A stretch of DNA of 50,597 nt, from assembly GCA_902518955.1 (NCBI GenBank), contig CABYIR010000008.1, forward strand, positions 1-50,597. The letters are read 5' to 3'. The translations under genes were made by a program, and so were the position numbers. Origin of the DNA: an uncultured Pelagibacteraceae bacterium. Its GTDB lineage: Bacteria > Pseudomonadota > Alphaproteobacteria > Pelagibacterales > AG-422-B15. The notes beneath the pieces were generated by a model that saw nothing but the letters and a program-made list of their open reading frames with translations, searched no databases and was not told the DNA's origin. Positions 8,501-50,349 of this stretch are shown here, piece by piece (position 1 is the stretch's first letter; each line of letters opens with the position of its first letter).

Positions 8501-9554
8501 AGATCAAATATTTTCAGGAACTAAAGAAGTTGATAAAAAGCTATCAATTAATCAATCAAACCTTGAAGAATATCTCAAAAATATTTTTGGAGATAAAATT
8601 TTCATAAATGAAATAAAGCAATTTAAAGGAGGTCAGTCAAATCCAACCTATATGATCACTACTAATCAAGGTGACTTTGTTTTAAGACGTCAACCTCCAG
8701 GAAAACTATTAAAATCTGCTCACGCAGTAGATCGCGAATACAGAGTTATAACAGCGCTAAGTCAAACTAATGTTCCTGTACCTAGAACTTATGGTTATTG
8801 TGATGATGAAGATGTTGTAGGTACTAAATTTTTCTTAATGGACCATGTGAAAGGAAATATATATTGGGAACTAATATTACCAAATCTAGATGAAGTTGCA
8901 CGGAGAAATATTTATCTGTCTATGAATGATACGATTTCAAAATTACATAACGTCAATTTTGAAAAAATAAATTTAGGCGACTATGGAAAACACGAAAACT
9001 ACATGCAGAGACAAATATATAGATGGACTAAGCAATATAAAGACTCTGAAACTCAAGAAATTGGAGAAATAAACGAACTTATAAATTGGCTTCCAAAAAA
9101 TATTCCTTTGGAAGAGGAAACTTCAATAGTTCATGGTGATTTTAGATTAGATAATATGATTTTTGATCCAGAAACGCATCAAGTAAAAGCTATCCTAGAT
9201 TGGGAATTGTCAACATTAGGAAATCCGATTGCAGATTTTACATATCATATGATGTCATGGAGATTACCTGCGGCCGCAAAAGGATTAGGCATGCTTGGAG
9301 CAGACTTAAAGTCTCTAAATATTCCATCCGAAGATGAATATTCAGAACTATACTATAAAAAAACTGGCAGAAATAAAATTGAGAATTGGGATTTCTATAT
9401 GGCTTATAATATTTTTAGATTAGCTGGAATAGCTCAGGGAATAGTTGGTAGAGTTAGAGATGGAACAGCTTCAAGTTCTGAAGCAAAAAACTATGAAGCT
9501 TTTGTCCCAATCTTAGGTAAGATAGGTTGGGATATAATAAGAGAGATTAAATAA
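8490..9554 (+). CDS. APH-fold phosphotransferase, ACAD10/11 kinase-domain type
   Basis: A 354-residue aminoglycoside-phosphotransferase-fold protein (COG3173). It matches the kinase domain that precedes the dehydrogenase domain in mammalian ACAD10/ACAD11, and the stand-alone LvaA of Pseudomonas levulinate catabolism. Motifs are FKGGQSNPTY at 45-54, LRRQPPGKLL from 65, the Brenner motif HGDFRLDN at 215-222 and the metal-binding LDWE at 236-239. By family knowledge it would phosphorylate the 4-hydroxyl of a hydroxyacyl-CoA. An ACAD11-like dehydrogenase lies close by on the opposite strand (10958-12163), which supports this role. The substrate is inferred and not shown. Confidence 0.85.
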   Translation: MKTRDQIFSGTKEVDKKLSINQSNLEEYLKNIFGDKIFINEIKQFKGGQSNPTYMITTNQGDFVLRRQPPGKLLKSAHAVDREYRVITALSQTNVPVPRTYGYCDDEDVVGTKFFLMDHVKGNIYWELILPNLDEVARRNIYLSMNDTISKLHNVNFEKINLGDYGKHENYMQRQIYRWTKQYKDSETQEIGEINELINWLPKNIPLEEETSIVHGDFRLDNMIFDPETHQVKAILDWELSTLGNPIADFTYHMMSWRLPAAAKGLGMLGADLKSLNIPSEDEYSELYYKKTGRNKIENWDFYMAYNIFRLAGIAQGIVGRVRDGTASSSEAKNYEAFVPILGKIGWDIIREIK

Positions 9555-9557
9555 TTA

Positions 9558-10799
9558 ATGACAAATACTCTTGATATAGATTTTGTTAGGAAACAATTTC
9601 CTACTTTTCAAAATCCAAAAACAGCAAATTTTGCATTCTTTGAAAATGCAGGAGGAACCTACGTTCCTAGACAATTAATTGAAAAACTGAATGACTTTAT
9701 GATTACTAAAAAAGTTCAGCCTTATGGTGATTTTGGCCCTTCAATAGAAGCTGGTGAAGAGATGGACCAAAGCCTAGCAAAGATTGCTGAGTTATTAAAT
9801 GTTTCTAAAGATGAGTTTATTATCGGTCCCTCGACAACAATGAATATGTTTTTATTATCAAATGCAATCCAGAATTGGCTAGATGAGGGAGATGAAATTA
9901 TTGTTACTAATCAAGATCATGAAGCAAATATTGGTGCGTGGAGAAAGCTTACTGAGAGAGGAATCATTATTAAAGAATGGAAATTTAACACGGAAACCGC
10001 TGAACTCGAAATTGAGGAATTGAAGAAAATAATAAGTGATAAGACAAAATTTATATGTGTTTGCCATACTTCTAATATTGTAGCTTCAATTAATAATCTA
10101 CATGAAATAACTAAAATTGCTCATGAGAGAGATATTAAAGTAGTTGGTGATGGAGTTGCCTATATGGCTCATGACCTTGCAGACTTAAAAAATATTGATG
10201 TCGATTTTTATAGCTTTAGTTTGTACAAAACTTATGGCCCCCATCTTGCTCTCCTGTATGGAAAAAAAGAATTGCTTCAAAAAACAAAAAATTTAAATCA
10301 TGAATTTTTGTCTGAAGAAATTCCGTACACTCTCAATCCTGGAGGTCCAAATCATGAGGAACTAGCATCCCTGTCAGGGCTGACAGATTACTATGAAGAT
10401 TTATTCAATCATCATTTCAATGAAAATGGCATTAGTCTTCATGAAAAAGGAAAAAAGATCTTTCAACTTATCCATGGTCATGAGGAGAAATTGATAAAGG
10501 TTTTAATTGAATTTCTTAAAAGTAAAAAGAATGTAAGAATTATTGGAAGTCAATCTCATTCAAGAGATATAAGGATGCCTACCTTATCTTTTACTGTTAA
10601 TGGAATTAGCTCAAGAGAAATTGCTTTAGGTGCAGGTAAAAAAGATATCGGTATTCGTAACGGAGAGTTTTATGCTTGGCGCTGTCTTCATGGACTCGGC
10701 ATTGAGCCAAAGGATGGTGTCGTCAGGGTTTCAATGGTACATTACAACAATTTAGAAGAAGTAAATCGACTTATCTCTTATCTAGACACCGTTATTTAG
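9558..10799 (+). CDS. Class V aminotransferase-fold PLP enzyme
   Basis: A 413-residue fold-type I PLP enzyme of the class V/cysteine desulfurase-like superfamily. Visible elements are an ENAGGTYVP N-terminus (29-37), a PLP phosphate-binding stretch GPSTTMN at 90-96, NQDHEAN at 118-124, HTSN at 170-173, the PLP-pyridine Asp in GDGVAYMAH at 197-205, and the Schiff-base Lys K224 in SLYKTYGPH. No obvious catalytic Cys loop of a sulfur-mobilising desulfurase was identified. It starts 3 bp after the phosphotransferase gene and probably belongs to its operon. The reaction cannot be assigned. Confidence 0.85.
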   Translation: MTNTLDIDFVRKQFPTFQNPKTANFAFFENAGGTYVPRQLIEKLNDFMITKKVQPYGDFGPSIEAGEEMDQSLAKIAELLNVSKDEFIIGPSTTMNMFLLSNAIQNWLDEGDEIIVTNQDHEANIGAWRKLTERGIIIKEWKFNTETAELEIEELKKIISDKTKFICVCHTSNIVASINNLHEITKIAHERDIKVVGDGVAYMAHDLADLKNIDVDFYSFSLYKTYGPHLALLYGKKELLQKTKNLNHEFLSEEIPYTLNPGGPNHEELASLSGLTDYYEDLFNHHFNENGISLHEKGKKIFQLIHGHEEKLIKVLIEFLKSKKNVRIIGSQSHSRDIRMPTLSFTVNGISSREIALGAGKKDIGIRNGEFYAWRCLHGLGIEPKDGVVRVSMVHYNNLEEVNRLISYLDTVI

Positions 10800-10980
10800 A
10801 TTTTAACTTTTTTAATCTTTCTTGTTTTTGTCTGATTGACTCACTCATTGATAAATCCTCAAGATAATGATAATCATCCCAATAAGAGTCAAAAGTCTTG
10901 TTCTTTACAGACTGGCTGTACTTATCCTTAATTGATATTTCCTTTTTTTTAGACAAATTAAAGGTACTTTTTAAGCTCAT
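10792..10980 (-). CDS. Small hypothetical protein (62 aa)
   Basis: A 62-residue, Lys/Ser-rich reading frame from an ATG at 10980. A longer in-frame start at 11025 would lie deeper inside the dehydrogenase gene and is less likely. It overlaps the 3' end of the acyl-CoA dehydrogenase gene by 23 bp in another frame and the convergent aminotransferase gene by 8 bp. The visible features are a [10 protein letters not shown] segment and a charged C-terminal helix ([13 protein letters not shown]). I do not recognise a family. It fills an otherwise empty 158 bp, which mildly supports it being a gene. Confidence 0.4.
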
Positions 10981-12163
10981 TTCTAGCAATTGACAATCGA
11001 TGTACTTCATCAGGACCGTCAGCAAGTCTTAGTGTTCGCATGCCGGCATATGCCTGAGCTAATCTTGGATCAGTAGTAACACCTGCACCACCATACGCTT
11101 GTATTGCATCGTCAATTATTTTTAATGCCATATTAGGGGCTGCGACCTTGATCATTGCTATTTCATTTTTAGCAATCTTATTTCCTACTTTATCCATCAT
11201 CGAGGCAGCTTTCAAAGTAAGCAATCTTGTCATTTCAATATTGATTCTCGCATCTGCAATTCTTTCTTGCCAAACCGAGTGTCTTACAACTTCTTTTCCA
11301 AAAGCTTTTCTAGACATTAGTCTCTTACACATTGCTTCAAGTGCAACTTCAGCTAATCCAATTGTTCTCATACAATGGTGAATTCTACCTGGTCCGAGTC
11401 TTCCTTGCGCAATTTCAAATCCTCTACCCTCACCAAGTAGCATATTTTCTGGAGGTACCTTTACATCATTAAATTCTATTTCAGCATGACCATGGGGTGC
11501 ATCATCAAATCCAAATACTGGAAGATGTCTTTTTATTTTTATACCTGGAGCATCTTTATCAACAAGAATCATTGATTGTTGCTTATGCTTATCAGGATTG
11601 TCAGGGTCAGTTTTACCCATAAAAATATAAAATGCGCATCTTGGGTCCATTGCACCAGAAGTCCACCATTTAGTGCCATTTAGAACGTATTGATTTCCAT
11701 CTTTTTTTATTTCACTTGTAATATTTGTTGCATCTGAAGATGCTACTGCTGGCTCTGTCATCGCAAAAGCTGATCTTGTCTTACCTTCAAGCAAGGGCTC
11801 TAAATATTTCTTTTTTTGTTCATCAGTTCCGTATCTAACTAAGACTTCCATATTACCAGTATCAGGCGCTGAACAATTAAATACTTCCGCTGACCACATT
11901 GCTCTTCCCATAATTTCACACATTGGGGCATATTCAGCATTCGTAAGTCCGTGGCCTAAATCACTCTCAGGAAGAAAAAGGTTCCAGAGGTCTTCCTTCT
12001 TAGCTTCTTCTTTGAGGTCTTCAATTATAGGTACAACTTGCCAACGATTATCTCCAAAATCTTCAATTTGTTGGTGATATGTAATATTGTTAGGATAAAC
12101 ATGCTTATCCATAAATTTTTCAAGACGTTCTGTTGTCACTTTAGCTTTTTCTGAAATCGTCAT
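10958..12163 (-). CDS. Acyl-CoA dehydrogenase, ACAD11-like
   Basis: A FAD-dependent acyl-CoA dehydrogenase family protein of 401 residues. Family landmarks are [15 protein letters not shown] (133-147), the WWTSGAMDP strand (166-174), [22 protein letters not shown] (257-266) and [11 protein letters not shown] (356-366). The ADGPDEVH motif at 381-388 puts Asp382 where medium-chain enzymes have the catalytic Glu, as in the ACAD10/11 and LvaC group. That group acts with an APH-fold kinase to remove a 4-hydroxyl group from acyl-CoAs. The matching kinase is encoded at 8490-9554. The start directly abuts the tadA stop, suggesting co-transcription. Confidence 0.9.
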
Positions 12164-12613
12164 TTACCTATATTCCTTAAAAAAATCATTTATTATTTTT
12201 TCACAATCAGATTTTGAAATATTATCGTATATTTCAGGCACATGATTGCAATTCTTTGACTGAAAAAAATTAATGCTACCATTTATAGCACCAAATTTCA
12301 AATCGTCAGCACCAAAATATAGTTTTTTTATTTTTGATCGAGATATTGCAGCTGCACACATAATGCATGGCTCTAAGGTTACATAAAGACTACAATCAAT
12401 AAGTCGATCACTCTTTATTTTCTGACATGCTTCTCGAATAGCATTAATTTCTGCGTGACCAAGTGGATCATATTCATTCACAACCGTATTATGAGCTTGG
12501 GCTAATACTTCTCCATCCTTATTGAGAATAACACACCCAACTGGTATTTCTCCACATTTCTTTCCCTTCAATGCCAGTTCTATTGCTAAATTCATCGGAG
12601 AATTTTTGGTCAT
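12164..12613 (-). CDS. tadA: tRNA(adenine-34) deaminase
   Basis: A 149-residue cytidine-deaminase-fold enzyme that converts A34 to inosine in tRNA-Arg(ACG). Zinc and catalytic residues are H53-A-E55 and the PCIMC motif with C83 and C86. The N-terminal GEIPVGCVIL and HAEINAI sequences are typical. It is divergent from rluB-rsmD across a 51 bp gap, an arrangement common in alphaproteobacteria. A general nucleoside deaminase is the alternative, but length and motifs fit TadA better. Confidence 0.92.
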   Translation of the reverse strand: MTKNSPMNLAIELALKGKKCGEIPVGCVILNKDGEVLAQAHNTVVNEYDPLGHAEINAIREACQKIKSDRLIDCSLYVTLEPCIMCAAAISRSKIKKLYFGADDLKFGAINGSINFFQSKNCNHVPEIYDNISKSDCEKIINDFFKEYR

Positions 12614-35947: not shown

Positions 35948-35982
35948 GAAATTACAGTTTTTATTTAATGGAGCGTTCAAAA

Positions 35983-36480
35983 ATGAAAAACAAAATTGAG
36001 AAGAAAAATGGTTTCTCGCTGATTGAGCTTTTAGTTGTTGTTGCAATTATTGGTATTCTAGCGGCTGCAGGTGTTGTAGCATATAACGGCTTTATGGATA
36101 ATGCAAAAAAGAGTTCCTCAAAAGCCAATCATACAAATGTGGTAAAATTTCTAAGTTCAAATTTTACTAACTGCTCAACTGGAGCAACTTATATCGCATG
36201 GTCAACTGGTGGTAACCCATACAATGCTCCTTGTACTTGGTCAGTGACTCAACACGCTTCAAGAATGGCTACTCATTTTGCTGCTGAAAATTTTAAGAAT
36301 CCACACTATTCATCTCAAAATGCTGTTTACTATAGAAATGGAACGCCTCCAACATCGGGTTCTTATGTTGGCCAAACGTGGATCTATTGTCAGAACTCCA
36401 ATCCTCAAAGATGTTTTGTGAATACAAGATGGGGTCCTGGAAGTAGTGACTTCTCAAGAAGTACAGTAACTAAAGAGTAG
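35983..36480 (+). CDS. Type IV prepilin (major pilin candidate)
   Basis: A 165-residue prepilin from the ATG at 35983, chosen because GGAG lies 9 nt upstream; an in-frame ATG at 35968 would include that GGAG. The class III signal is KKNG|FSLIE, with cleavage after Gly10 and the conserved Glu as residue 5 of the mature protein. A hydrophobic N-terminal helix follows. Four cysteines (C64, C84, C136, C144) could form two disulfides in the globular head. The KANHTNVVKFL segment is like marine alphaproteobacterial pilins as I recall them. It has its own promoter-like sequence and a second pilin gene 21 bp after it. Confidence 0.88.
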   Translation: MKNKIEKKNGFSLIELLVVVAIIGILAAAGVVAYNGFMDNAKKSSSKANHTNVVKFLSSNFTNCSTGATYIAWSTGGNPYNAPCTWSVTQHASRMATHFAAENFKNPHYSSQNAVYYRNGTPPTSGSYVGQTWIYCQNSNPQRCFVNTRWGPGSSDFSRSTVTKE

Positions 36481-36501
36481 TTACATTAACTTGATAGTAC
36501 T

Positions 36502-36879
36502 TTGAGAGGTTTCTCTTTATTAGAATTATTAGTTGTCGTTGCTATTATTGGTATTCTGGCAGCTGTTGGAATAGTTTCATATAATGGGTACATTACCGGC
36601 GTAAAAAATAAACAAGCGCAAACAGGTCTTCAATCAATCTACCTCGAGCAAGAAGAGTATAAATCAATCAATAAACAATACTATCGACCAAGCGGTGGTT
36701 GTGGCGACCAAACTACTACTATTAATAATGGTTTGTTTGGTGGCCAGATAACTCTTGATAATGAAAACTTCAGATATTGTATATCCGGTAATACATCGAG
36801 TTATATTGCCTACGCTTATGATAAAATGAATAGCAGTAATCGTTTTTGGATAAGAAATACTAACCAAAAAAGTTGGTAA
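36502..36879 (+). CDS. Type IV prepilin, PilE-like, with a three-residue leader
   Basis: A 125-residue prepilin whose only possible start is TTG at 36502, since an in-frame TAA at 36487-36489 lies just upstream. The leader is only MRG, followed by FSLLELLVVVAIIG with Glu at mature position 5. Two cysteines (C67, C93) may form the C-terminal disulfide loop. The RYCISG segment resembles PilE-type minor pilins. No Shine-Dalgarno is visible. It lies 21 bp after the first pilin and 22 bp before pilD. Confidence 0.8.
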   Translation: MRGFSLLELLVVVAIIGILAAVGIVSYNGYITGVKNKQAQTGLQSIYLEQEEYKSINKQYYRPSGGCGDQTTTINNGLFGGQITLDNENFRYCISGNTSSYIAYAYDKMNSSNRFWIRNTNQKSW

Positions 36880-36901
36880 GCCTTTTAACCTCTTGTCTTT
36901 T

Positions 36902-37672
36902 ATGACTCCCATTGAAATAGCTTTTGTAATCGCTTTTTCGTTGTGTTTTGGAAGTTTTGCAAATGTTTGCATATATCGTCTTCCAGTTGATAAATCAATG
37001 TTTACTCCATCAGAGTGTATGCATTGCAACAAACCAATTCCATTTTATTTAAATATACCCTTGATTGGGTTTTTCATTTTAAGAGGTAAATCTGCATGTT
37101 GTCAAAAATCTCTATCATTTCAATATCCAATCGTTGAGGCATTAACTGGAGTTGGAGCATTATATTTAAGTCTGATATACGGTGTTAATATTGAGTCAGT
37201 GCTTGTATTCTTTTTTTACTTATCGCTGGTGATTATTTTTTTTACAGATCTCAATGAGTACATTATTCCAAATGTTATTACTTATTCTCTTAGCATAGCT
37301 GGAATATTAATCTCTTATTTTTCCTACTCGGTTTTTAACTTATCTTTGTTAGAGAGTTTATTGGGTGGAATAATCAGTGGAGGAATCTTATATTTAACAT
37401 CAAAGATATTTATCCTAATACGTAAAAAAGAAGGCATGGGAATGGGAGATGTAAAAATGATCTCTATGATTGGCTTTTGGATGGGTATTGAAAATACATT
37501 TTTAGTACTGATAGCGTCATCTCTGTTGGGCTCAATCGTTGGAATTGGACTTATTTTAATGAAGAAGATGGAACGATCGCAGTATATTCCATTTGGAACT
37601 TTTTTATCTATTGGGGCAGTATTAGTTTGGTTAATAAAAATTTATTATTTACCAAGCATATTCGTACTTTAA
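36902..37672 (+). CDS. pilD: Prepilin peptidase/N-methyltransferase
   Basis: Inner-membrane aspartic protease that cleaves prepilin leaders and N-methylates the new N-terminus. The ATG at 36902 is preferred to an in-frame TTG at 36893, giving 256 residues. The catalytic aspartates are D116 in FTDLNEYIIPN and D183 in GMGDVKM. The cytoplasmic zinc-binding loop has C39/C42 (CMHC), but the second pair is altered: C66-C67 in SACCQ replaces the usual CxxC. About eight hydrophobic segments are present. It follows two of its substrates and converges on pilY1 with a 4 bp overlap. Confidence 0.93.
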   Translation: MTPIEIAFVIAFSLCFGSFANVCIYRLPVDKSMFTPSECMHCNKPIPFYLNIPLIGFFILRGKSACCQKSLSFQYPIVEALTGVGALYLSLIYGVNIESVLVFFFYLSLVIIFFTDLNEYIIPNVITYSLSIAGILISYFSYSVFNLSLLESLLGGIISGGILYLTSKIFILIRKKEGMGMGDVKMISMIGFWMGIENTFLVLIASSLLGSIVGIGLILMKKMERSQYIPFGTFLSIGAVLVWLIKIYYLPSIFVL

Positions 37673-40600
37673 AAAATTTGTCTCCAAGACTTGATTGTAA
37701 ATGAATTGCTAGAGCCCCCACTTCCTGAGATGGTATTTCCAATAATAAGATTATCTTTAGACGTCCATCCTGAACCCATACCTCCACCAGGGGCTCCACT
37801 AATACCAATATATATCTTTCCTTTATAAATTATTGGTGTAGTTGCCATACCAGACCCTAGTTTAAATTTCTTGAGAGTATTACCACAAGTATATGCATGT
37901 GCACTTAAAGTTGCTGATCCTGGATTACACGGATTCAATTTATTAGGTATATATCTTGGGAAATATACAACTCGATCCATGATCGCTGAAGATCCTGTAA
38001 TTTTTTCGTTAGGCAATAAATCAACATACCATCCTTTATGACTTGCATCAGGACATGAAGCTCCAGCGGACGTTACATTTTTACATTTTGCTGCCGTAAT
38101 AGATGATACTCCACTTTTAAACGATGGATAATTTGTATCCTTAATTGCTAATATTCTATTCTTAATTTTTGGATCCTCATCTGCAATATTGTAGCGATCA
38201 CCAGTTCCAAAGAATGCCCAAAGATCACTATTATCATCTAATGATAAAGTCACATCATGGAAAACTCTTCGTCCATTTGTTTCAGTTGCTTCCCCGTCAA
38301 ATAATTGCTGAAGCTGATACATTGTACCCTTGTTTGTTAAATTAAGTTTCCATAACTTGGATTCAAAGTCTGCAAAGTATACCAATGCACCTTTATAATT
38401 TGCAGTTGATGTTGTATCGGGTGTAACTGGAACTACTGACGCTATAACTGAATTGACGACTTTATTTCCTGCTTTGTCGGCAACATCTATTTTCTTCAAT
38501 ACTTTGCCACCATCTGCAATATCAATTAAATACACTGCAGATCCATATGCAGTTGCAGCACCACCGTTTCCACCTGCTCCAAATATTGCAACCCATTTTT
38601 CTACTCCTCCACTTTGAATTCGAATAATTCTAGGAGTTGAAACCGCCTGTCCTAATTTAGTATAATCTCGAGATGGTGAGATTGATGCATAGGCTTCTTC
38701 AGTTTTAGTTCCTGCAGCATTCCAGTATGTTACGGTCTGAGTTGATGGATCATTTTTAAAAGTCCACATATGTTTGGGAGCATCAATATTTGTTATATCG
38801 AGTGCTGAGTAGGAATGCTCGCCTTCACCCATTCCAAAAACAACGACTGTTTTCCAGGCACCATTATGATAAATATCTTTCACAACAGGAGATCCATCAA
38901 CACCGTATATCGAGTTAGTTTTATTTGCTTTTCCTGAACTAACGCCTCTAAGTTTTGGTATAAGAGACGGTGGTATGAATGCCCATTTTTCAGATCCATC
39001 TGCGTTACTAAACGCATGTAGCATTCCCCCGTTTGATCCAGCTAAGATAGTTGTAGCTCGGGCTTTCCAACGATCCTTAAAGGCTTTATAGCCATTTTGA
39101 CTTCTATAAAAATCATCTGAATTTTTATCAGATGTATCCATGCCAGATGAAGGATTGTTTACGAGCGCAGGAGTTGAGTTATAAATATCTGCAAGTTTCC
39201 ATCTTTCATCAGTTGTGGAACCGTCTAAATCTTCATCATATGAATCAATACCTCGAGTGAAGTTTATTAAATTAGTGGCATCAGCAACCGTGCCCATTGT
39301 ACCACCTAAATATAATTCAGATCTTAAAACGCTTTGATTTGCCGCAACAAAATTATTTAATCCAGCAGGAACATTTGGGCTTACTGTCCAAATATTTCTT
39401 GTATCTGCTGCTCTTGCTTCTAATTTTTCTCCTGAGTCCCATTGTTTAGCTCCAACTGTCCCATCAGCTTTTAATTTATATCGAAGAAGTCTTCCTTGCC
39501 ATTGATGATCTTTTTTATAATTAAACACTGCTTGATAAATTGAGTCTCCTGATGTCATATCGGGCATAATAACAGGCGCTGTAAATGTAAGACGAGATTG
39601 AAGAACTTGTTTAATTGCATATGTCAACTGCTGTAATAATTGATCCTCATCATCAGCGAATAATGGCGTCTTAGTTCCACCAGCTGTTGCAAGATTTTGA
39701 TAATTCCTTGTGTTTCCATATCCAGCGTAACCAAGTGCAAATGTTTTTACGCCCTTATTGGTTCGTAACCAAGTGGCAGTCCTAATATTGGATGTTCCCC
39801 ACCATTGGCCATCACTAAAGACAATATTATAGTTCTGCTGACAGTTTGCTTTAGGGCTTATAGGTGATTGTGATCCTGTCCAGTAAGATTTTGCATTATC
39901 CATACCTCGATCTAAATAAGTTCCCCCACCGGTAGGAAAGCGATCTAAGTCAGTATAAATTTGAGCTGCTCCATTTTTACTAATTGGAATTCTAATTCGA
40001 GCACTTGATCCCCATTCTTGTAGACCAAAGTTTGCACCCGTTGTTAGAGATGTATCAGAGACAAGCTTCTTCAAAACACGTCGCGCAATTGCAATTCGTT
40101 TCTCAGACTTTCCATACAAGCCATCGAATGATGCATTTCCTGTAAGATTTGCCCCTCCAGCACAAAGTGACATTTGAAATTTGACAATTCGACTATTATC
40201 AGTGTCCCCAACAAAAACTTTGTCACCCAGCACTCCAAAACCCTTAGCATTTCTTAATTGGCCTAGGTCAGATCGACTTCCATATCCATCACCTATTGTA
40301 CAAAGATGAGCAAATGTAGTTGCGTTATAAACATAAATTTTATGATTAATGCTACTTAAAATATAAAGGCGATTTGCACCGTCAACTTCAATATCATATG
40401 GTGACCCAAGTGAACTTTTATGAGTTAAATTTGCTTCAGTTTTTTCAACTTGCATGAAGTAGTTTGATGCATTGTTAAATCGTGTCAGAACTTTTGTAAA
40501 ATTATCGAAATAATAACTTTTATTATTTTGGTCAATTGCATGAGGGCCTACTCTATTATAATAATTTGGGTCTGGCGTAATGGTTGATTTTAACGAACAC

Positions 40601-41142
40601 CCAGTATCATAGATATATGCAACGCCAAATTGATTAACTACTATTGAGTCACTAGGTGTTATTTCAAGATCAGCATTAATGTGAGTTGAGTTATTTGGAA
40701 ACGTCGAACTTGTACATCTCCAGTTGCCAGATGAATCATAGGACATGATTCTTTTATTGCCTGTATCTATAAAATAAACATTATCACCACTGTCTACAGC
40801 TACTTTACCAGGATAACGAAATTGTTGTTGACCAGAACCGCCATCGCCACGAATTTCTTTCAATAATTTTCCACCAGCATTATATTTTTTGAGATAACTT
40901 CTGTTATATTCTGTTGCCCAATGCGCATTATTCGAGTCCATAACAACGTCATGAGGGTTATTAACTTGTGCTGTACTTGGAGCCGTCCAGCCCATACTAC
41001 CAGACCGGTCTAACATAATAAGTATGTTGGCCTTTACATCTGACTTTCCTGTTCCTGGAGGCGCACTTTTAGCAAAAACATTATTAGAAGAAATACTTAG
41101 AGATAAAGACAGAACAGCTATAAATGTTAAAAATCTACTCAT
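37669..41142 (-). CDS. pilY1: PilY1-like type IV pilus tip protein with VWA and NHL-like regions
   Basis: A 1157-residue secreted protein with signal peptide 1-24. The VWA domain begins with the MIDAS DxSxS at D45-S47-S49, but its remaining elements come much later: T408 in GGGTYL and D444 in VFSDG. The intervening residues, about 55-330, hold NHL-like repeats such as FRYPGKVAVDSGDNVYFIDT. The C-terminal PilY1 propeller domain covers about 515-1157, with a calcium-loop-like DEDLDG at 636-641 followed by LADIYNSTPALV. PilY1 proteins sit at the pilus tip and act in adhesion, assembly and retraction control. It ends the operon with pilT, fimT, pilV, pilW and pilX. Confidence 0.88.
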   Translation of the reverse strand: MSRFLTFIAVLSLSLSISSNNVFAKSAPPGTGKSDVKANILIMLDRSGSMGWTAPSTAQVNNPHDVVMDSNNAHWATEYNRSYLKKYNAGGKLLKEIRGDGGSGQQQFRYPGKVAVDSGDNVYFIDTGNKRIMSYDSSGNWRCTSSTFPNNSTHINADLEITPSDSIVVNQFGVAYIYDTGCSLKSTITPDPNYYNRVGPHAIDQNNKSYYFDNFTKVLTRFNNASNYFMQVEKTEANLTHKSSLGSPYDIEVDGANRLYILSSINHKIYVYNATTFAHLCTIGDGYGSRSDLGQLRNAKGFGVLGDKVFVGDTDNSRIVKFQMSLCAGGANLTGNASFDGLYGKSEKRIAIARRVLKKLVSDTSLTTGANFGLQEWGSSARIRIPISKNGAAQIYTDLDRFPTGGGTYLDRGMDNAKSYWTGSQSPISPKANCQQNYNIVFSDGQWWGTSNIRTATWLRTNKGVKTFALGYAGYGNTRNYQNLATAGGTKTPLFADDEDQLLQQLTYAIKQVLQSRLTFTAPVIMPDMTSGDSIYQAVFNYKKDHQWQGRLLRYKLKADGTVGAKQWDSGEKLEARAADTRNIWTVSPNVPAGLNNFVAANQSVLRSELYLGGTMGTVADATNLINFTRGIDSYDEDLDGSTTDERWKLADIYNSTPALVNNPSSGMDTSDKNSDDFYRSQNGYKAFKDRWKARATTILAGSNGGMLHAFSNADGSEKWAFIPPSLIPKLRGVSSGKANKTNSIYGVDGSPVVKDIYHNGAWKTVVVFGMGEGEHSYSALDITNIDAPKHMWTFKNDPSTQTVTYWNAAGTKTEEAYASISPSRDYTKLGQAVSTPRIIRIQSGGVEKWVAIFGAGGNGGAATAYGSAVYLIDIADGGKVLKKIDVADKAGNKVVNSVIASVVPVTPDTTSTANYKGALVYFADFESKLWKLNLTNKGTMYQLQQLFDGEATETNGRRVFHDVTLSLDDNSDLWAFFGTGDRYNIADEDPKIKNRILAIKDTNYPSFKSGVSSITAAKCKNVTSAGASCPDASHKGWYVDLLPNEKITGSSAIMDRVVYFPRYIPNKLNPCNPGSATLSAHAYTCGNTLKKFKLGSGMATTPIIYKGKIYIGISGAPGGGMGSGWTSKDNLIIGNTISGSGGSSNSFTIKSWRQIF

Positions 41143-41638
41143 TGTCCATATCCATGTATTTTAATGATAACTCATTGAAGCGATCAGAAACTATTTCAAC
41201 AACCTGCTCTCTTGAATCACCAGAAATTTTATCGATAAGAAAAACTGATTTTTCACTTTTATCCCAGTAATAGTAAGCAAGACCACTTGTTCCAGCTCGA
41301 CCATAACCCTCTGATGGTTCGCCGTAATAATATTTAAGACTTTTCAAATAATCAGCATCATTTTTATAATCTCGGATAATGATTTGATGTAAATCTTTAT
41401 CAATAAAATTGTACTTCACAATTGCCTGCTCGAAGTCATCGCAAATACGTTCAATAGGAATATCATAACCATGTAGCTTGCTGCTATTCGTTCCAGCATC
41501 TCCTACAAATTTATTTTGAAATGAATTTAAAGATGAACCAATTAATACTTTTTCAAAATCACACAAAGCGTGTGCTGCTGTATTTGCTATAAAAAACAAT
41601 ACAACTGAAGAAACATAAATTTTAAAGTACTTAACCAT
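41135..41638 (-). CDS. Secreted protein of unknown function in the minor-pilin operon
   Basis: A 167-residue protein with a signal peptide (about 1-24, before LCDFEK). The mature part has two cysteines (in ALCDFEK and ERICDDFE) that may form a disulfide, a KYYYGEPSEGYG segment and a mixed alpha/beta pattern. I do not recognise a family. It abuts pilX (1 bp overlap) and overlaps pilY1 by 8 bp, so it is translationally coupled on both sides. A role with the tip complex is inferred from position only. It occupies the place where some other systems carry PilE-type minor pilins. Confidence 0.75.
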   Translation of the reverse strand: MVKYFKIYVSSVVLFFIANTAAHALCDFEKVLIGSSLNSFQNKFVGDAGTNSSKLHGYDIPIERICDDFEQAIVKYNFIDKDLHQIIIRDYKNDADYLKSLKYYYGEPSEGYGRAGTSGLAYYYWDKSEKSVFLIDKISGDSREQVVEIVSDRFNELSLKYMDMDNE

Positions 41639-42228
41639 TACTTATTAATTCCTACTATAGCCTCAATTAATGTTCTCGTATAGGCATTCGAAGAGCCTGG
41701 CCCTTTTCCACATGCAAAGACCTTGTAGAGATAGCTTGTCATATTGCCTCCTCCGCCCACATATCCAGTTCCACCGCCAATTCCACCGCCAATTCCAGTG
41801 CCTTTATAATTTGTTGTAGTGTGTTCTGTCGTAAACCATAAAAACGATTGATTATCATAAATCAGCTTTTCATTCCTATTTGTAACTCCTAATTCACTTG
41901 TCATCTTTATGCCTCTGCCACTAGTTCCATCATCTCCTGCAATCTTATATGTATCATCAAGTTGAAACTTACACAGAGTACCAACTGAAGAGCTTCCATT
42001 CTTTGGCAAATTACCAGTTGCCGCTTCAATTGATAGCCAGCGTCGAGCTGCCTCAACTCCTGTTTCAGCAGATAAGAACGTTTGTCGACTGCTCTCACTC
42101 TTTCCAGTAACTTTACTTTGAGATGATGCATTCATTAACAATACTGATCCCATTAGTGTCATCGCTAACAACATCACCATAGATAAAATAAGCGCAAACC
42201 CTTTTTGATTTAATTTACTATTGACCAT
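41638..42228 (-). CDS. pilX: PilX-like minor pilin
   Basis: A 196-residue pilin-like protein. The N-terminus QKG|FALILSMVMLLAMTL is a PilX-type class III signal without the usual Glu at mature position 5, as in PilX/GspK tip pilins. The AETGVEAARRWL segment is typical of the PilX N-terminal family. A Gly-rich loop (GGGIGGGTGYVGGGG) lies in the middle of the globular part. PilX proteins prime pilus assembly with PilV, PilW, FimT and PilY1. It overlaps pilW by 11 bp. Confidence 0.85.
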   Translation of the reverse strand: MVNSKLNQKGFALILSMVMLLAMTLMGSVLLMNASSQSKVTGKSESSRQTFLSAETGVEAARRWLSIEAATGNLPKNGSSSVGTLCKFQLDDTYKIAGDDGTSGRGIKMTSELGVTNRNEKLIYDNQSFLWFTTEHTTTNYKGTGIGGGIGGGTGYVGGGGNMTSYLYKVFACGKGPGSSNAYTRTLIEAIVGINK

Positions 42229-43540
42229 AGTAACTGTTCCTTATGAGTGCAGATATCGAATAGCTATCTCTTATGTAATTATCGTTAGTTGTAATAGGTC
42301 GATTTCCAATATTAAATGTTTGAGATACTGGTGAGGTTCCATGCTCTTCAGGGCTTCTAATTAAAAGTCCTACCTCAACCTCCTGCGGGTTTTGAGGCTC
42401 TCCAAAAACTTCTCCAAAAAATTGTATTTCAGCAATTTCATGCCACCTATGTGTTGTTGCGCCCGAGCAAGTTGTTCCACTTCCGTAATTACACTTTGCA
42501 GTACCACTAGGCCTTATTCCAATTGTCTTTATAACCGACTTTTGAAAATCAGAGTCAACACTTATCTCATGATAGGCTCCATACACGTCATAGTCTTGTG
42601 AGTTTTTATTACCTACTGGTGAACATGAAGAGGACCAAGTGCATTTTGTAGCATTTATGTGAAAACCATATTTACCAAAAATTGCATGTTCTTTCCCCCA
42701 CGGATGAGTAATTCCAGAAAAATTACCAGTTGAAACATTACCTGGTGACTCACTTCCAGATTCAGTATTTGCGCCATTCCAAATAAATATTTTCTCAAGC
42801 CTTACCTCTTTGTTAAACCTAACAGTTAATAGATCAACTCCTGCTATGCCTCCACATTCAGTTCCAACATCAATGTTACAAGACCACATTGTATTAAAAG
42901 AATTATCAAATGCGTAAGCCGCATCCCCACTTTTTGCAAAGCCTGGAAAAATATCAGTCTGTCGAGCAGTTATATTAAAATCTGCTGACGTTATTGTTCT
43001 AACATTTCCTTGACCATAAATTGTACTTCCAGTTCCTAATGCATTACCATTTTTTGTTCCAGTAAACTGAAGATCTTCAACGTAATCTGCTATTGGTGAT
43101 TCTGCTATCACTGTTTGTAAAGAACCAGCGGCACAATTCATTGCATTACATTTTTCAACCTTTTTATAAACCCTCAATCTATTATTATATGTTTTCGTAT
43201 AGTATGAAATTTTTAAACGTTCAGTGTAAGATTTATCATAAATTATCTCTATTGAGTCAGGGGCTGTGGTACCGCCATCAGTAATCTTTATTGCATTTGT
43301 AATTTCTGGTTTTTGTTTTGCTGGACCATCATCATAATTGTATCCTGCCATTCGAACATCACGCATGATCATTGTTGCTACAGCTCTTGATGTTTGGGAA
43401 ATATTTTTCATATCCTTTTGAAAGTCATAATTGTTTTTAATTACTATGTATGAAGCAAAAGATGCGGCAATAATGATCGAACTTATGGCAAGACCAATAA
43501 GTATTTCTGGTAATGTGAATCCCTCTTGATTACGGTGCAT
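42218..43540 (-). CDS. pilW: PilW-like minor pilin with a discoidin-like insertion
   Basis: A 440-residue prepilin. The signal is NQEG|FTLPEILIGLAI with cleavage after Gly7 and Glu12 as mature residue 5. The PilW N-terminal region covers about 8-160, including SRAVATMIMRDVRMAGYNYDD. Residues about 186-377 look like an F5/8 type C (discoidin) domain: an AYAFDNSFNTMWS start, a LLTVRFNKEVRLEKIFIWN core and an EIAEIQFFGE end. The C-terminus (385-440) returns to PilW-like sequence. Typical PilW proteins are about 270-350 residues. It overlaps pilV and pilX by 11 bp each. Confidence 0.85.
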   Translation of the reverse strand: MHRNQEGFTLPEILIGLAISSIIIAASFASYIVIKNNYDFQKDMKNISQTSRAVATMIMRDVRMAGYNYDDGPAKQKPEITNAIKITDGGTTAPDSIEIIYDKSYTERLKISYYTKTYNNRLRVYKKVEKCNAMNCAAGSLQTVIAESPIADYVEDLQFTGTKNGNALGTGSTIYGQGNVRTITSADFNITARQTDIFPGFAKSGDAAYAFDNSFNTMWSCNIDVGTECGGIAGVDLLTVRFNKEVRLEKIFIWNGANTESGSESPGNVSTGNFSGITHPWGKEHAIFGKYGFHINATKCTWSSSCSPVGNKNSQDYDVYGAYHEISVDSDFQKSVIKTIGIRPSGTAKCNYGSGTTCSGATTHRWHEIAEIQFFGEVFGEPQNPQEVEVGLLIRSPEEHGTSPVSQTFNIGNRPITTNDNYIRDSYSISALIRNSYYGQ

Positions 43541-43970
43541 TGATCACTCTTTTGAAATGATTACTTGCTTTACCATCACGAGATGCCATACGAATGGTAA
43601 CAACATAATAATCTTTTCCACTTTTCGTTTTTTTTACGACTTCAATTTTTCTCTTATCACTTGGAAGTACACTGCCTAACTTTTTATTAGCTTTAGCAAA
43701 CCATTTAGCTCTTTTCTTATCATGAGAGCCACTACCAGATGATCCTGATTTAAAGTCCATATTATGATACTTATCTATGTTGACTGTATCAGTAAGCAAG
43801 TCTTCATAGATCATATTGGCTAACATATTTTGTTTTTCACGATCAATGGAACTCATCAAAACCCGTGTTGATGTTGATGCTAAACCGTAGACAGCCACAA
43901 AGCCTATGCCAACTATAACTGCGGCAACTAATGCCTCAATAAGTGCTATACCCTGTTGATTTTTCTTCAT
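43530..43970 (-). CDS. pilV: PilV-like minor pilin
   Basis: A 146-residue prepilin from the ATG at 43970, which overlaps the fimT stop as TAATG and gives a standard leader MKKNQQG|IALIEALVAAVI with Glu12 as mature residue 5. An upstream in-frame start at 43988 would lie within fimT. The rest is a short globular head rich in Lys and Ser. It is coupled to fimT upstream and overlaps pilW by 11 bp. Confidence 0.87.
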   Translation of the reverse strand: MKKNQQGIALIEALVAAVIVGIGFVAVYGLASTSTRVLMSSIDREKQNMLANMIYEDLLTDTVNIDKYHNMDFKSGSSGSGSHDKKRAKWFAKANKKLGSVLPSDKRKIEVVKKTKSGKDYYVVTIRMASRDGKASNHFKRVINAP

Positions 43971-44539
43971 TAATTCCACTCTATCCATGTTCGTTGTTGA
44001 GGCGAATATCGAGTTACATCATAAAAACTTGTTGGTCCAATATCGACTCTAAATTTTGTATCAGCATCACGCGTGACTTCAAATCCACCGCCTTTTGATG
44101 TTCCATCAGGATTAAAACAAATTCTGCTACTAGTGTTACCATAGGAAGATGACCTTGAATTACCTGATGCATCATGTTTCGTTCGAACGGTTGCTTCAAA
44201 CTCTAATGCTACAGGATACTCTGGATCAGTCATTCTAGGTCGACCAGTTGATCCACTGCCAATGTTACAAAAAGAAGAATTAAGGCTATCAATATTCATA
44301 ACCATTATTCGATTACCTGATTGCTCTAAGATAATTGGAAAGCCAATGTTCTGACTTCTTGTTTTTGCATAATCAATAAGGCCTCGAATTTTTGCTACAT
44401 CATTTTCTGCAGTTCGTGATGATGTCCACCCAGCTAAATTTGGAACTGCAAAAAGTGCAACTAAGCCAAGGATTGCGACAGTCACAATAACTTCTAAAAG
44501 TGAGAAACCGTTTTTACGTTTAGTGTCCAATTCCATCAT
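43970..44539 (-). CDS. fimT: FimT/GspH-like minor pseudopilin
   Basis: A 189-residue prepilin with the signal RKNG|FSLLEVIVTVAILG, conserved Glu at mature position 5, and a GspH-like head. The segment AKIRGLIDYAKTRSQNIGFPIIL is typical of FimT/GspH, and a CFNPDG motif lies near the C-terminus. FimT proteins are minor pilins, some of which bind DNA for natural transformation. The start overlaps pilT by 20 bp. Confidence 0.87.
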   Translation of the reverse strand: MMELDTKRKNGFSLLEVIVTVAILGLVALFAVPNLAGWTSSRTAENDVAKIRGLIDYAKTRSQNIGFPIILEQSGNRIMVMNIDSLNSSFCNIGSGSTGRPRMTDPEYPVALEFEATVRTKHDASGNSRSSSYGNTSSRICFNPDGTSKGGGFEVTRDADTKFRVDIGPTSFYDVTRYSPQQRTWIEWN

Positions 44540-45530
44540 GATTAATCACCCCTGAGGTTAAGAGCTCTTCAATCGATTTTTCCATTTGAACCATTCCATC
44601 GGACACACCTGTTTGCATTGTACTTGGAAGTTGGAAAATTTTATTTTCACGGATTAAATTTTGAACAGCATTGTTACTTACAAGAATTTCAAATGCAGCC
44701 ACTCGTCCTGTTCCATCAGCCCTTTTCATCAAACGTTGTGTAATGACCATCTTTAAAGATGTCGCAATCTGTGCTCGAATTTGATCTTGTTGTCCTGGAG
44801 GAAACGCATCTATAATTCTATGAATGGTATTTGGTGCACCACTCGTGTGTAAAGTGCCAAAAACTAAGTGACCAGTTTCAGCTGCCGTCAATGCAAGAGA
44901 AATTGTTTCTTGATCACGAAGCTCTCCCACCAAAATAACATCTGGATCTTCTCTTAAACTTTCACGAAGTGCGTCAGTAAATGATGGGGTATTTGAGCCC
45001 AGTTCTCTTTGAGTGATTATTGAATTTTTTGGCTCATGAACAAACTCAATTGGATCCTCTACAGTAATGATATTGCAATCTTTGTTTGTGTTGATGTAGT
45101 CAATCATCGCAGCAAGGCTTGTTGACTTTCCAGATCCTGTTGGACCAGTGACCAATATTAAACCATTAAGTGGGGTTACTAATTTGCTTTCAATGACAGG
45201 TGGAAAGCCCATTTCATGAAAGACAGGTATCTTAGTTTCAATTTTTCTCATGACAATATTCATACCATTGTATGCAGAGTAAACATTAATTCTGAATCTT
45301 GTTGAGCCAATGATCATTGCAAGATCAAGACCCTTTTGGACTTTTAACTTTTCTTGATTTTCTTTGCTTAGCTTATCTTTAAGAAAGTCATCAATATCTT
45401 TAGCTGAAATAATCTGAGTTGAATCCCTTTGAATCGACCCATTTACACGCAAAGCAAGCGGTAACCCTGATTGAATGTGAATATCCGATAAACCGCTAAT
45501 TTCAGCACTTTTTGTAATGATATCATCCAT
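44520..45530 (-). CDS. pilT: Pilus retraction ATPase PilT
   Basis: Hexameric ATPase that powers pilus disassembly and twitching. The 336-residue protein has an N-terminal PAS-like domain with DIHIQSG, Walker A GPTGSGKST at 129-137, the Asp box around 156-160 (VEDPIE), Walker B ILVGELRD with Glu203, and the His box HLVFGTLHT at 221-229. A C-terminal AVQNLIRENK segment fits PilT. It heads the minus-strand operon, which places retraction and the minor pilins/PilY1 under one promoter. PilU is an alternative, but no second retraction ATPase is in the window. Confidence 0.9.
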   Translation of the reverse strand: MDDIITKSAEISGLSDIHIQSGLPLALRVNGSIQRDSTQIISAKDIDDFLKDKLSKENQEKLKVQKGLDLAMIIGSTRFRINVYSAYNGMNIVMRKIETKIPVFHEMGFPPVIESKLVTPLNGLILVTGPTGSGKSTSLAAMIDYINTNKDCNIITVEDPIEFVHEPKNSIITQRELGSNTPSFTDALRESLREDPDVILVGELRDQETISLALTAAETGHLVFGTLHTSGAPNTIHRIIDAFPPGQQDQIRAQIATSLKMVITQRLMKRADGTGRVAAFEILVSNNAVQNLIRENKIFQLPSTMQTGVSDGMVQMEKSIEELLTSGVINHDGIGH

Positions 45531-45702: not shown

Positions 45703-47481
45703 ATGTTCAAAAGTATTACAAATATCTTTAGCTCACTTGGATCGATCTTCAGTAAAAAAGGAAGCTCTTCTTCTGCATCTCCTACTGGTGTTGGCGGCAC
45801 GAATGAAAAGAAGTCTTTTTTTGGTAAATTAGTCGCAAAAGTTAGTACAGGCATCATTGACTCACTTAGTAAATATTCTGTTCAGCAAGAAGAAGTTGTC
45901 GGAGTAGATATTGGCCCTAGTGGTATTCGATTGCTTCAATTATCACAAACTGAAAAAGAAGAATGGATTGTTGAAAAATTAACTGCTCGACATGTTGATC
46001 GAGTAGAAGATATTAAAGTTAGTCAAGGACCATTTGTAGAAGCAATCAAAATAGGTTTAGAGTCTGGTAAGTTTACGACTACTAATGCCGCTGTATCTCT
46101 TCCTGTATCAAGCTCAATTGTAAAAGTTATTGCGATGCCTCTTATGAGTGACCTTGAGATGAAAAATGCTATTGAATTTAATTCTCTTTGGGAAAACTTA
46201 ACTCAATTGCCTGGTACAATTGATGAGTATTCGATTTTTCATCAGGTAATTAGAAAAGATTCCTCATCAAATATGATGGATGTTCTTTTTGTTGCTTCAA
46301 AATTAAGTGATGTTAATGCGTATATAGATATTGTAACACAAGCAGGATTACAACCTGTAGTTCTTGATGTAAAATGCTTTGCACTTCGAAATGCATTTGA
46401 AACTATGGCATTGCCAAACATTGCTCAAAAGCCAATGGCCATTTTAGAAATTGGATCTCATGAAAATTATTTACTAGTGCTAAAAGGAGATGATCCATTT
46501 GTCAGTGATTTATTTTTAAGTAATGCAGATAAAGCTATACTTGGAGTAAAGCAAAGTGATACTCTTGCATTAGCTCCAATTATTGATCGATACATCTTAC
46601 AAATTAGACAGAACTTAACGGCATACCAAAATCGATTTAAGTCTGACAAGGTTGACTCAATTTTTATTGTTACGGACACTCCAAATAGTGAAATGATTAA
46701 TAAAGTTTTATCAGAAAAATTAACTGATCTTACAGTTGTAAACTTCAATCCTTTTTCAAAGATGCAAATTCCAGCTAACGTTCAAAGTAAGATTGACGCT
46801 GAGGAAAATAACTCATCATTTGCTGCTGTGACTGGTCTTGCTACTCGAAAACTTGATATTTTTGGATACTATCAAAAAGTTACTGGTGTTAAAAATATCA
46901 ACCTTCTTCCAAACCGTGAAGGGGTTAAAAGCTCAATTAAAAACAAGTTTATTTCTGGGATTTTTGCGATCGGAATTTCGATAGCTGTGATTGTCTTCGG
47001 AATATATGCTTTTTCTTCATACTATTTTCAGTCTTCTTCCAATCAAGAAGCGTTATCAGACTACGATATGCTTAAAATGGAAATTGAGCAACTTCAAGGC
47101 CAGTATTCAGCCCTAATAAGTGAAAAAGATAAAATTAACGAACAATTAAAGTTATCTGAGACAGCGACAACAAATCAAAATATAGCTGCAAAAGTATTGC
47201 GTGAGATCGCTTATCAGGCAGGATTTAATATTGTGCTAACAAATCTTGATTTTAATGGACAAGAGAAATATGAAGTCAAGGGAGAAGCTTTGTCTGATGC
47301 AGACGTTATAAAGTATATTACCCGTGTTAAAGAAACAGAATTATTTGAAAATGTTGTACTTGAAAAATCATCACTTGCTCAAGAAGGATCAACAATTAAA
47401 AAGTTTGTTGTGAAATTAATAATTAAACCAGAGTTAATAAACTCTCAACTTGTAGAAGTAAATGAGGAGGTTGAAGAATAG
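45703..47481 (+). CDS. pilM: Fused PilM-PilN type IV pilus alignment protein
   Basis: A 592-residue single frame that joins two normally separate proteins. Residues about 63-385 are actin-like PilM, with VGVDIGPSGIRLLQL at 66-80 and a late GLATRKL segment. Residues about 396-592 are PilN, with the NINLLPN motif at 398-404, one membrane helix (about 418-438), a coiled coil (455-485) and the periplasmic ferredoxin-like fold. In Pseudomonas the cytoplasmic INLLP peptide of PilN binds PilM, so here the ligand and receptor are in cis. The first 60 residues are a Ser/Lys-rich extension. It abuts the pilO start with no gap. Confidence 0.88.
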   Translation: MFKSITNIFSSLGSIFSKKGSSSSASPTGVGGTNEKKSFFGKLVAKVSTGIIDSLSKYSVQQEEVVGVDIGPSGIRLLQLSQTEKEEWIVEKLTARHVDRVEDIKVSQGPFVEAIKIGLESGKFTTTNAAVSLPVSSSIVKVIAMPLMSDLEMKNAIEFNSLWENLTQLPGTIDEYSIFHQVIRKDSSSNMMDVLFVASKLSDVNAYIDIVTQAGLQPVVLDVKCFALRNAFETMALPNIAQKPMAILEIGSHENYLLVLKGDDPFVSDLFLSNADKAILGVKQSDTLALAPIIDRYILQIRQNLTAYQNRFKSDKVDSIFIVTDTPNSEMINKVLSEKLTDLTVVNFNPFSKMQIPANVQSKIDAEENNSSFAAVTGLATRKLDIFGYYQKVTGVKNINLLPNREGVKSSIKNKFISGIFAIGISIAVIVFGIYAFSSYYFQSSSNQEALSDYDMLKMEIEQLQGQYSALISEKDKINEQLKLSETATTNQNIAAKVLREIAYQAGFNIVLTNLDFNGQEKYEVKGEALSDADVIKYITRVKETELFENVVLEKSSLAQEGSTIKKFVVKLIIKPELINSQLVEVNEEVEE

Positions 47482-48762: not shown

Positions 48763-50349
48763 ATGAATACTTTACAAATATTTATGAGAAAGTTTGGAAT
48801 TATTATTGCAATTCTAACTCCTTTATTACTTTTATCTTGTGCTGAATACATGATGTTGGATAGTGAAGTTAAAGAAGATTTCAAGCCAACTGAATTTGCA
48901 AAAGAAAACCAACCTGTTATTGAAGAAAGTGTAAAACTGGGCCCAAGACCAAATACAAAAACAGACACAGCTTTACGACCTGATAGAAGAATCTTTATCG
49001 ATGAAAGTATAATGACTGATTATACAAAAATTATTGATAAAAATTTCACTCAAACATTTCCTATTTCAGTAAATTTTGAAAATGTTGAAATTAGAGAAGT
49101 GATGCAAACATTCTCAATTATTACAGGCAAGAACATACTTGTTGGAGATGAAGTTAAAGGAAATGTTAAAGCAAGAATTGTAAATGAAGATTGGGATGAC
49201 GTACTAGAAGCTATTCTAGAAATTAAAAATATCGCTTTAACATTAAACCCAAAAACAAATATTGTTCGTATACATTCAAAAGATGTTTTAACTGCTCAAG
49301 AAGCATATAATTTAAAACGTAAGGCTGAAATTAGAAAAGCAATGGATTTAAACAAGTCTATTGCACCTGTGAGATCTGAAATATTTAAACTTTTCTATAG
49401 TAATCCAACAGTAGTTAAAGCTCAGATTGAAGATATTCTAAAAAATATGGATTCTACTGCTTCAGCAGGTGAGGGAGATGAAGGAGAATCCTCCGGTGGT
49501 ACAGCTGATCGAGTTAAAATGACAGTTGATGCAAGACTAGGATCTCTAATAGTTCTTGGTGGAGCCGAAGACCTTAATTTCATAGAAAAACTTATTAACC
49601 AAATTGATGTCCCTACCCAACAAATTTTGATTGAAGCATTTGTTGTTGAGGTAGGCTCAGACTTTGACAAAGCTTTTGGTACTCGAATTGGTCAATCAAT
49701 GAATAATATAACTGGAGATAGTTCAAAATCACTTTCTTTAGGAACCCCTTTTTATGATGAGGAAACAAAACTATGGACTGTTCCATTGCAAGATGGAGGC
49801 TTATCTAATAATCCAATAAGTGCAATGACAGGTTCTCTTGGTATGTTGCTAAGATCTAACAATATTGATTTATTAGTAGAACTCCAAGCTCTTGAAACTC
49901 TTGGCTTAAGTAAAATTGTATCAAATCCTAAAATTTTCACGCTTGATAATGAAACTGCAACAATTACTCAAGGGATGGAAATTCCTTTCACTACAACTGA
50001 AGATGGAGAAACTAAAACAGAATTTAAAGATGCAGATCTTAAACTTGAAGTAACGCCTAGTATTGTTGGAGATGGAAATATAATCTTAAATATAGATATT
50101 AATAAAGATAATGCTGATACATCACAAGCTAATCCACCTATTTCAAGCACTAAAGTCACTACTAGATTATTGGTTGAAGATCAAACAATCGTAATGATTG
50201 GTGGTATTTATGAACAAACATCTACGAAGGGCTCATCAAAGACTCCAATACTTAGTGATATACCTGTCTTCGGTAACTTATTTAAAAGTGTCACAAAAGA
50301 CGATAAGCTTGATAGGTTACTAATATTTATCGCACCGAGGATTTTATAA
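48763..50349 (+). CDS. pilQ: Type IV pilus secretin PilQ (lipoprotein)
   Basis: Outer-membrane secretin through which the pilus emerges. The 528-residue protein has a lipobox LLSC with Cys26. An STN-like N0 domain covers about 95-170 (VNFENVEIREVMQTF, GKNILVGDEVKG), followed by an N1 domain (about 205-225), an acidic loop, and the secretin beta-domain from about 285 (QILIEAFVVEVGSDF) to SDIPVFGNLFKS near the end. It lacks the AMIN domains of longer PilQ proteins, so it resembles the lipoprotein secretin MshL in size. pilB begins immediately after its stop codon. Confidence 0.92.
   Translation: MNTLQIFMRKFGIIIAILTPLLLLSCAEYMMLDSEVKEDFKPTEFAKENQPVIEESVKLGPRPNTKTDTALRPDRRIFIDESIMTDYTKIIDKNFTQTFPISVNFENVEIREVMQTFSIITGKNILVGDEVKGNVKARIVNEDWDDVLEAILEIKNIALTLNPKTNIVRIHSKDVLTAQEAYNLKRKAEIRKAMDLNKSIAPVRSEIFKLFYSNPTVVKAQIEDILKNMDSTASAGEGDEGESSGGTADRVKMTVDARLGSLIVLGGAEDLNFIEKLINQIDVPTQQILIEAFVVEVGSDFDKAFGTRIGQSMNNITGDSSKSLSLGTPFYDEETKLWTVPLQDGGLSNNPISAMTGSLGMLLRSNNIDLLVELQALETLGLSKIVSNPKIFTLDNETATITQGMEIPFTTTEDGETKTEFKDADLKLEVTPSIVGDGNIILNIDINKDNADTSQANPPISSTKVTTRLLVEDQTIVMIGGIYEQTSTKGSSKTPILSDIPVFGNLFKSVTKDDKLDRLLIFIAPRIL

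Follow-up and report, generated by a model that had tools for sequence, protein, structure and literature searches.

A PilY1-type pilus-tip protein of SAR11 bacteria whose VWA domain is split by a probable NHL-type beta-propeller

Which structure lies between the two parts of a metal-binding adhesion domain in the pilus-tip protein of a marine SAR11 bacterium, and could it serve as a binding surface of its own? The question is raised by a gene of an uncultured Pelagibacteraceae bacterium (assembly GCA_902518955.1), located on contig CABYIR010000008.1, of which the whole stretch of 50,597 nucleotides is referred to here as the window. The genome amounts to 1.17 Mb, is 79% complete and belongs to SAR11 (Pelagibacterales). 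The gene encodes a protein of the PilY1 type, and its closest named match over that protein is the uncultured Pelagibacteraceae bacterium AG-912-N08, at 98% identity. The answer proposed here, which is considered likely, is that this protein sits at the tip of a SAR11 type IV pilus and that its von Willebrand factor A (VWA) domain is split by an NHL propeller that would act as a ligand-binding module. The first-pass annotation of this DNA had described such an insertion, and the position, strand and length that it gave for the open reading frame (ORF), an intact frame of 1157 codons, are correct. The protein and its parts are as follows.

37669-41142, minus strand: PilY1-type pilus-tip protein, 1157 amino acids (aa) (ORF; Pfam T4P_PilY1, 2.5e-19; PDB 3hx6 PilY1, 8.8e-21)
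41071-41142, minus strand: probable signal peptide, residues 1-24, MSRFLTFIAVLSLSLSISSNNVFA (judged by eye from the sequence)
40993-41031, minus strand: VWA strand 1 with the DxSxS motif, residues 38-50, with D45, S47 and S49 at 40996-41010 (conservation; fills VWA profile positions 1-16 after excision)
40123-40992, minus strand: inserted NHL-type beta-propeller, residues 51-340, probably of six blades (Pfam NHL; PDB profile search; blade model)
39598-40122, minus strand: remainder of the VWA domain, residues 341-515, with Thr408 at 39919-39921 and Asp444 at 39811-39813 (Pfam VWA, 350-506; excised VWA profile)
38329-39102, minus strand: core of the C-terminal PilY1 beta-propeller, residues 681-938 (Pfam PF05567)

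The assignment to PilY1 comes from the C-terminal half, in which T4P_PilY1 (PF05567) scores 69.9 bits over residues 681-938 for a curated cut-off of 28.1, and which is matched by PilY1 3hx6 in a sequence search of the PDB. The VWA domain carries the residues of a metal ion-dependent adhesion site (MIDAS), namely the motif DRSGS at residues 45-49, Thr 408 and Asp 444, exactly where they had been placed before. All of the 14 SAR11 homologues compared have D45, S49, T408 and D444, S47 is conserved to at least 90%, and the intervening stretch can barely be aligned. In the uncut N-terminal half, the Pfam VWA match (residues 350-506, 32.8 bits) covers profile positions 17-171 and thus leaves strand 1 with its DxSxS motif outside, and the C-terminal part of the domain taken alone (residues 335-512) is not detected by the VWA profile. 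When the insert is deleted in silico, a single VWA match (PF00092) appears that runs from position 1 to position 172 of 174 and scores 41.3 bits, for a cut-off of 23.8. Furthermore, five PilY1 homologues (L105, L111, L124, L141 and L150) have little or no insert, and in these the same DxSxS motif leads almost directly to helix 1. Taken together, MIDAS conservation, the excised profile and the homologues with small inserts place the exit of the insert in MIDAS loop 1, which joins strand 1 to helix 1. A whole VWA fold with its DxSxS, Thr and Asp metal ligands is thus present in the sequence and metal binding is predicted; the same evidence supports a domain split just after the DxSxS strand and resuming near residue 341 with helix 1, close to the resumption at about 335 given in the earlier description.

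The stretch between these two parts is probably an NHL-type propeller of six blades, as judged from sequence profiles. Indeed, Pfam NHL (PF01436) recognizes two stretches around residues 108-132, with 31.2 bits for the whole protein and 37.3 bits for the insert alone (cut-off 20). A phmmer search of the PDB with the window PilY1 retrieves NHL propellers (Thin, TRIM2/3/71, Pizza) over about residues 50-173, and a profile built from 13 SAR11 inserts retrieves Thin, TRIM71, TRIM2, Pizza designs, PknD and NHLRC2, with E-values down to 1.7e-18. With a blade model trained solely on other SAR11 species, the window insert scores 32.1 bits, far above chance, as 500 shuffles reach 7.5 at most. Blades are scored at residues 60-90, 107-142, 202-227, 244-278 and 307-328, about 47 residues apart, and the remaining gap fits a sixth. 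The claim of an NHL-like propeller at residues 55-330 is therefore supported, with limits nearer 55-335, a trivial shift. A longer and more divergent class of SAR11 inserts (351-389 aa) yields a weak pointer to NHL proteins (E=3.8e-5), so that its sharing of the NHL fold is suggested with less assurance.

The earlier proposal called for profile searches and for structure prediction; the former were positive for both NHL and VWA, the latter was uninformative. AlphaFold2 gave a mean confidence score (predicted local distance difference test, pLDDT) of 30 for residues 25-540 and of 41 for the insert alone, from alignments of two rows, namely the window and a sequence 98% identical to it (L028); the deeper SAR11 homologues, obtained by whole-genome searches, were not part of them. 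With so few rows, the models are not counted as evidence, and the fold assignment consequently rests on the sequence profiles. In the insert model the strands fall into six groups, each of three or four, and form no closed ring. NHL structures rank first in a Foldseek search with it, at a template modelling (TM) score of about 0.28 and a root-mean-square deviation of about 18 A, values at which this ranking is a weak local echo only. Such low-confidence models, like a native Pfam match that spans VWA positions 17-171 only, would be compatible with the absence of any insertion: residues 1-340 would form an independent N-terminal propeller with a DxSxS motif arising by chance, and strand 1 of the VWA domain would lie elsewhere or be missing. 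This is highly improbable, since SAR11 homologues conserve DxSxS along with T408 and D444, the VWA profile becomes complete, at a higher score, once the insert is excised, and the small-insert homologues pass from the same motif straight to helix 1.

The split domain occurs across SAR11. Of the 397 Pelagibacterales genomes sampled, 128 match a profile of the N-terminal region (59 among the 151 good ones), and all 36 distinct SAR11 genes that were read have a split VWA domain, with inserts of 292-389 aa. In the family to which the window belongs, three genomes only match this profile. Across Alphaproteobacteria, the matches are limited to two of 385 genomes, the window genome itself and a fragment that ends with its contig where the insert would lie. 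Among 399 sampled Pseudomonadota genomes, 107 possess PilY1, and no PilY1 from outside Pelagibacterales matched the N-terminal profile over the insert. A wide spread beyond SAR11 was accordingly rejected: matches outside the order are confined to the end of the VWA domain and the linker, except for one ORF of 658 aa that matched over the propeller part alone. A search of viral contigs returned no relatives. Because the NHL propeller type recurs across SAR11, the finding is broader than what the first-pass annotation described. As a separate observation, three genes for PilY1 occur in one Pelagibacteraceae genome (G044), including a tandem pair (L027:3428-7861 and 7926-12311), and each has an insert after DxSxS.

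The insertion site itself is not new. In 33 non-SAR11 proteobacterial PilY1 proteins, the distance from DxSxS to the MIDAS Asp is mostly 240-730 residues and in only a few 120-170 (a value of 95 for L144 reflects a wrong motif pick), so most of the VWA domains sampled carry long inserts after DxSxS. Since long inserts are usual at this position, a point that the first-pass annotation could not take into account, the split topology is less exceptional. The possibility that the inserts of other lineages are NHL propellers too was also rejected, as 10 of their VWA regions gave no Pfam NHL match and a profile of five inserts matched no NHL structure. In four further proteins (L127, L129, L147 and L152), a different large, beta-rich insert occurs later in the VWA domain, after the second strand, and resembles DNRLRE or carbohydrate-binding modules (CBM) by eye; Pfam named no family for that of L127 and L129.

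In most of the proteobacterial PilY1 VWA domains sampled, the site after DxSxS is filled by other, unidentified long inserts, so bulk there may be what matters. The SAR11 propeller would then be a spacer or scaffold that stiffens or shields the MIDAS and has no ligand of its own, an idea to which the shield of folds around the MIDAS of Acinetobacter baylyi ComC also lends itself (PMC10374093). This is judged unlikely: the five homologues named above manage with little or no insert, and the NHL propeller is kept across the order, for which a pure spacer has no need.

The published record is consistent with this picture. The VWA domains of PilY1/ComC proteins are known to be modified lineage by lineage through insertions of different origin (PMC10374093), InterPro counts 68 PilY1 architectures (PMC8179133), and PilY1 in SAR11 genomes is already known as an annotation (PMC3686209). 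A 2026 survey gives vWFA and DUF4114 as the only N-terminal domains so far identified in published PilY1 proteins (PMC13190605). In the literature searched, no paper contains both "PilY1" and "NHL repeat", although the 68 InterPro architectures may include an NHL entry. Thus, VWA inserts in PilY1 are a known strategy, and what is new, within that literature, is the identity of the insert as NHL and its spread; the propeller-in-VWA arrangement is found across SAR11 and is not described in the papers searched.

The neighbours of pilY1 form a type IV pilus locus, with the minor-pilin genes (PilX_N, PilW-like, N_methyl, GspH) directly upstream.

35968-36879, plus strand: two pilin genes, 35968-36480 and 36502-36879 (N_methyl; ComP_DUS below cut-off in the second)
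36893-37672, plus strand: prepilin peptidase, PilD (Pfam Peptidase_A24)
41135-41638, minus strand: small secreted protein of 167 aa between the pilX-like gene and pilY1 (ORF)
41638-42228, minus strand: PilX-like minor pilin (Pfam PilX_N, 6e-07)
42218-43540, minus strand: PilW-like minor pilin of 440 aa with an extra middle domain (N_methyl, 2.5e-06; PilW, 0.005, below cut-off)
43530-43988, minus strand: PilV-like minor pilin (N_methyl; relatives keep the same order)
43970-44539, minus strand: FimU/GspH-like minor pilin (N_methyl; GspH, 5e-04)
44520-45530, minus strand: PilT-like ATPase of 336 aa (Pfam T2SSE, 4.7e-50)
45703-47481, plus strand: fused PilM-PilN pilus assembly protein (Pfam PilM_2 and PilN)
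48763-50349, plus strand: PilQ-like secretin (Pfam Secretin, 4.8e-43)

The gene order from the pilins to pilY1 is conserved in relatives, and the other T2SSE ATPase of the genome adjoins a T2SSF gene on another contig (C20). The small secreted protein matched no Pfam family. By eye, the middle domain of the PilW-like pilin (AYAFDNSFNTMWSC...VRLEKIFIWNG) resembles a discoidin domain; no match to this piece was obtained from Pfam or the PDB, and for the homologue in L017 the F5_F8_type_C match stays below threshold, at 16.2 bits (cut-off 28.2). The ComP_DUS match of the small pilin at 36502-36879, 23.0 bits for a cut-off of 27.3, is a hint of a DNA-uptake pilin. In two SAR11 genomes, pilY1 is immediately followed downstream by a large, autotransporter-like gene rich in repeats (L019:7327-9921 and L023:9102-11747). 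It is possibly the autotransporter adhesin of coastal SAR11, which is reported to be always next to pilus genes (PMC12636525).

How such a head would work can be proposed by analogy. For other PilY1 proteins, docking on the minor-pilin priming complex and placement at the tip are established. The C-terminal propeller of the SAR11 protein would likewise dock on this complex, bringing the N-terminal head to the tip of the pilus. The NHL propeller would sit beside the metal site, as expected from the exit of the insert in MIDAS loop 1, and may, together with the MIDAS, serve as a variable module for ligand binding or specificity. The pilus would then catch a substrate, a cell or DNA through propeller and MIDAS before retracting. 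The second, putative ligand-binding surface that the first-pass annotation suggested for the pilus tip is plausible.

Conservation bears on this proposal. In comparisons between species, conservation is lowest in the insert, at 18.6% mean identity compared with 37-48% elsewhere in the protein (37% in the VWA remainder, 41% in the C-terminal propeller). Between the window and its closest relative, the ratio of nonsynonymous to synonymous polymorphism (pN/pS) of the insert is 0.08, which indicates purifying selection. The insert is thus constrained in the short term and divergent in the long term, as expected of an outside-facing surface. A surface that is tip-exposed and diverges fastest might also be one chiefly exposed to phages or used as their receptor, its divergence reflecting escape from pilus-tip phages, and minor pilins can indeed serve as phage receptors, as discussed for CofB/TcpB (PMC8179133). 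However, no phage link was found and the pN/pS value between the two closest sequences does not point to rapid escape on that scale, so this explanation is thought quite unlikely.

The insert is more readily seen as a lineage-specific, tip-exposed putative ligand-binding head beside the MIDAS, a view that is favoured with fair though incomplete confidence. It finds a precedent in Acinetobacter baumannii ComC, in which loss of the VWA-inserted finger alone impairs adhesion, twitching and DNA uptake (PMC10374093). Several points weigh against it. The blade scan detects five of the six blades and misses blade 3, and the AlphaFold2 models have the low pLDDT values given above. Instead of ligand choice, relaxed constraint or escape from phages could explain the low conservation of the insert. 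Finally, adhesion of SAR11 is unobserved in culture or in the environment (PMC12636525).

Known systems share some of these features. The PilY1 proteins of Pseudomonas aeruginosa and Legionella have the same C-terminal PF05567 propeller, N-terminal VWA domain with MIDAS and pilin gene cluster, but no NHL propeller is reported in their VWA domain. A. baumannii ComC also carries a lineage-specific insertion within the VWA domain of a pilus-tip PilY1, but there some 90 residues form an antiparallel beta finger, not a propeller. Streptococcus sanguinis PilB and S. pneumoniae RrgA are likewise pilus VWA adhesins with a MIDAS flanked by inserted arms (PMC8179133). Unlike SAR11 PilY1, PilB is a modular pilin and RrgA a sortase-pilus subunit, and their arms are small. 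The NHL propellers of TRIM2/3/71, Thin, Brat and PknD resemble the SAR11 insert in repeat sequence and blade length and provide its best PDB matches. These NHL propellers are terminal or free-standing domains and are not known to be inserted in a VWA domain. Integrin alpha chains with an I domain offer an analogy, as they also join a VWA/MIDAS domain and a beta-propeller by domain insertion. In integrins, the nesting is reversed, the VWA domain lying inside a propeller of a different family, and no homology with the SAR11 insert is claimed. A bolder version of the proposal, put forward tentatively and with considerable doubt, is that of a two-propeller adhesin, in which the NHL propeller emerging from MIDAS loop 1 would bind the ligand, couple to the metal site as a reverse-nested counterpart of I-domain integrins and set the adhesion or uptake target of each SAR11 lineage.

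SAR11 bacteria are among the most abundant marine cells and are usually described as free-living and non-adhering; about a third of the sampled Pelagibacterales genomes match the PilY1 head profile. This head is a defined, expressible target for asking what the SAR11 pilus contacts, be it particles, other cells, DNA or phages. For the family as a whole, evidence is growing that the PilY1 VWA domain is a platform into which different lineages place their own heads beside the MIDAS, and the SAR11 head contributes to this case a module that is folded and can be identified.

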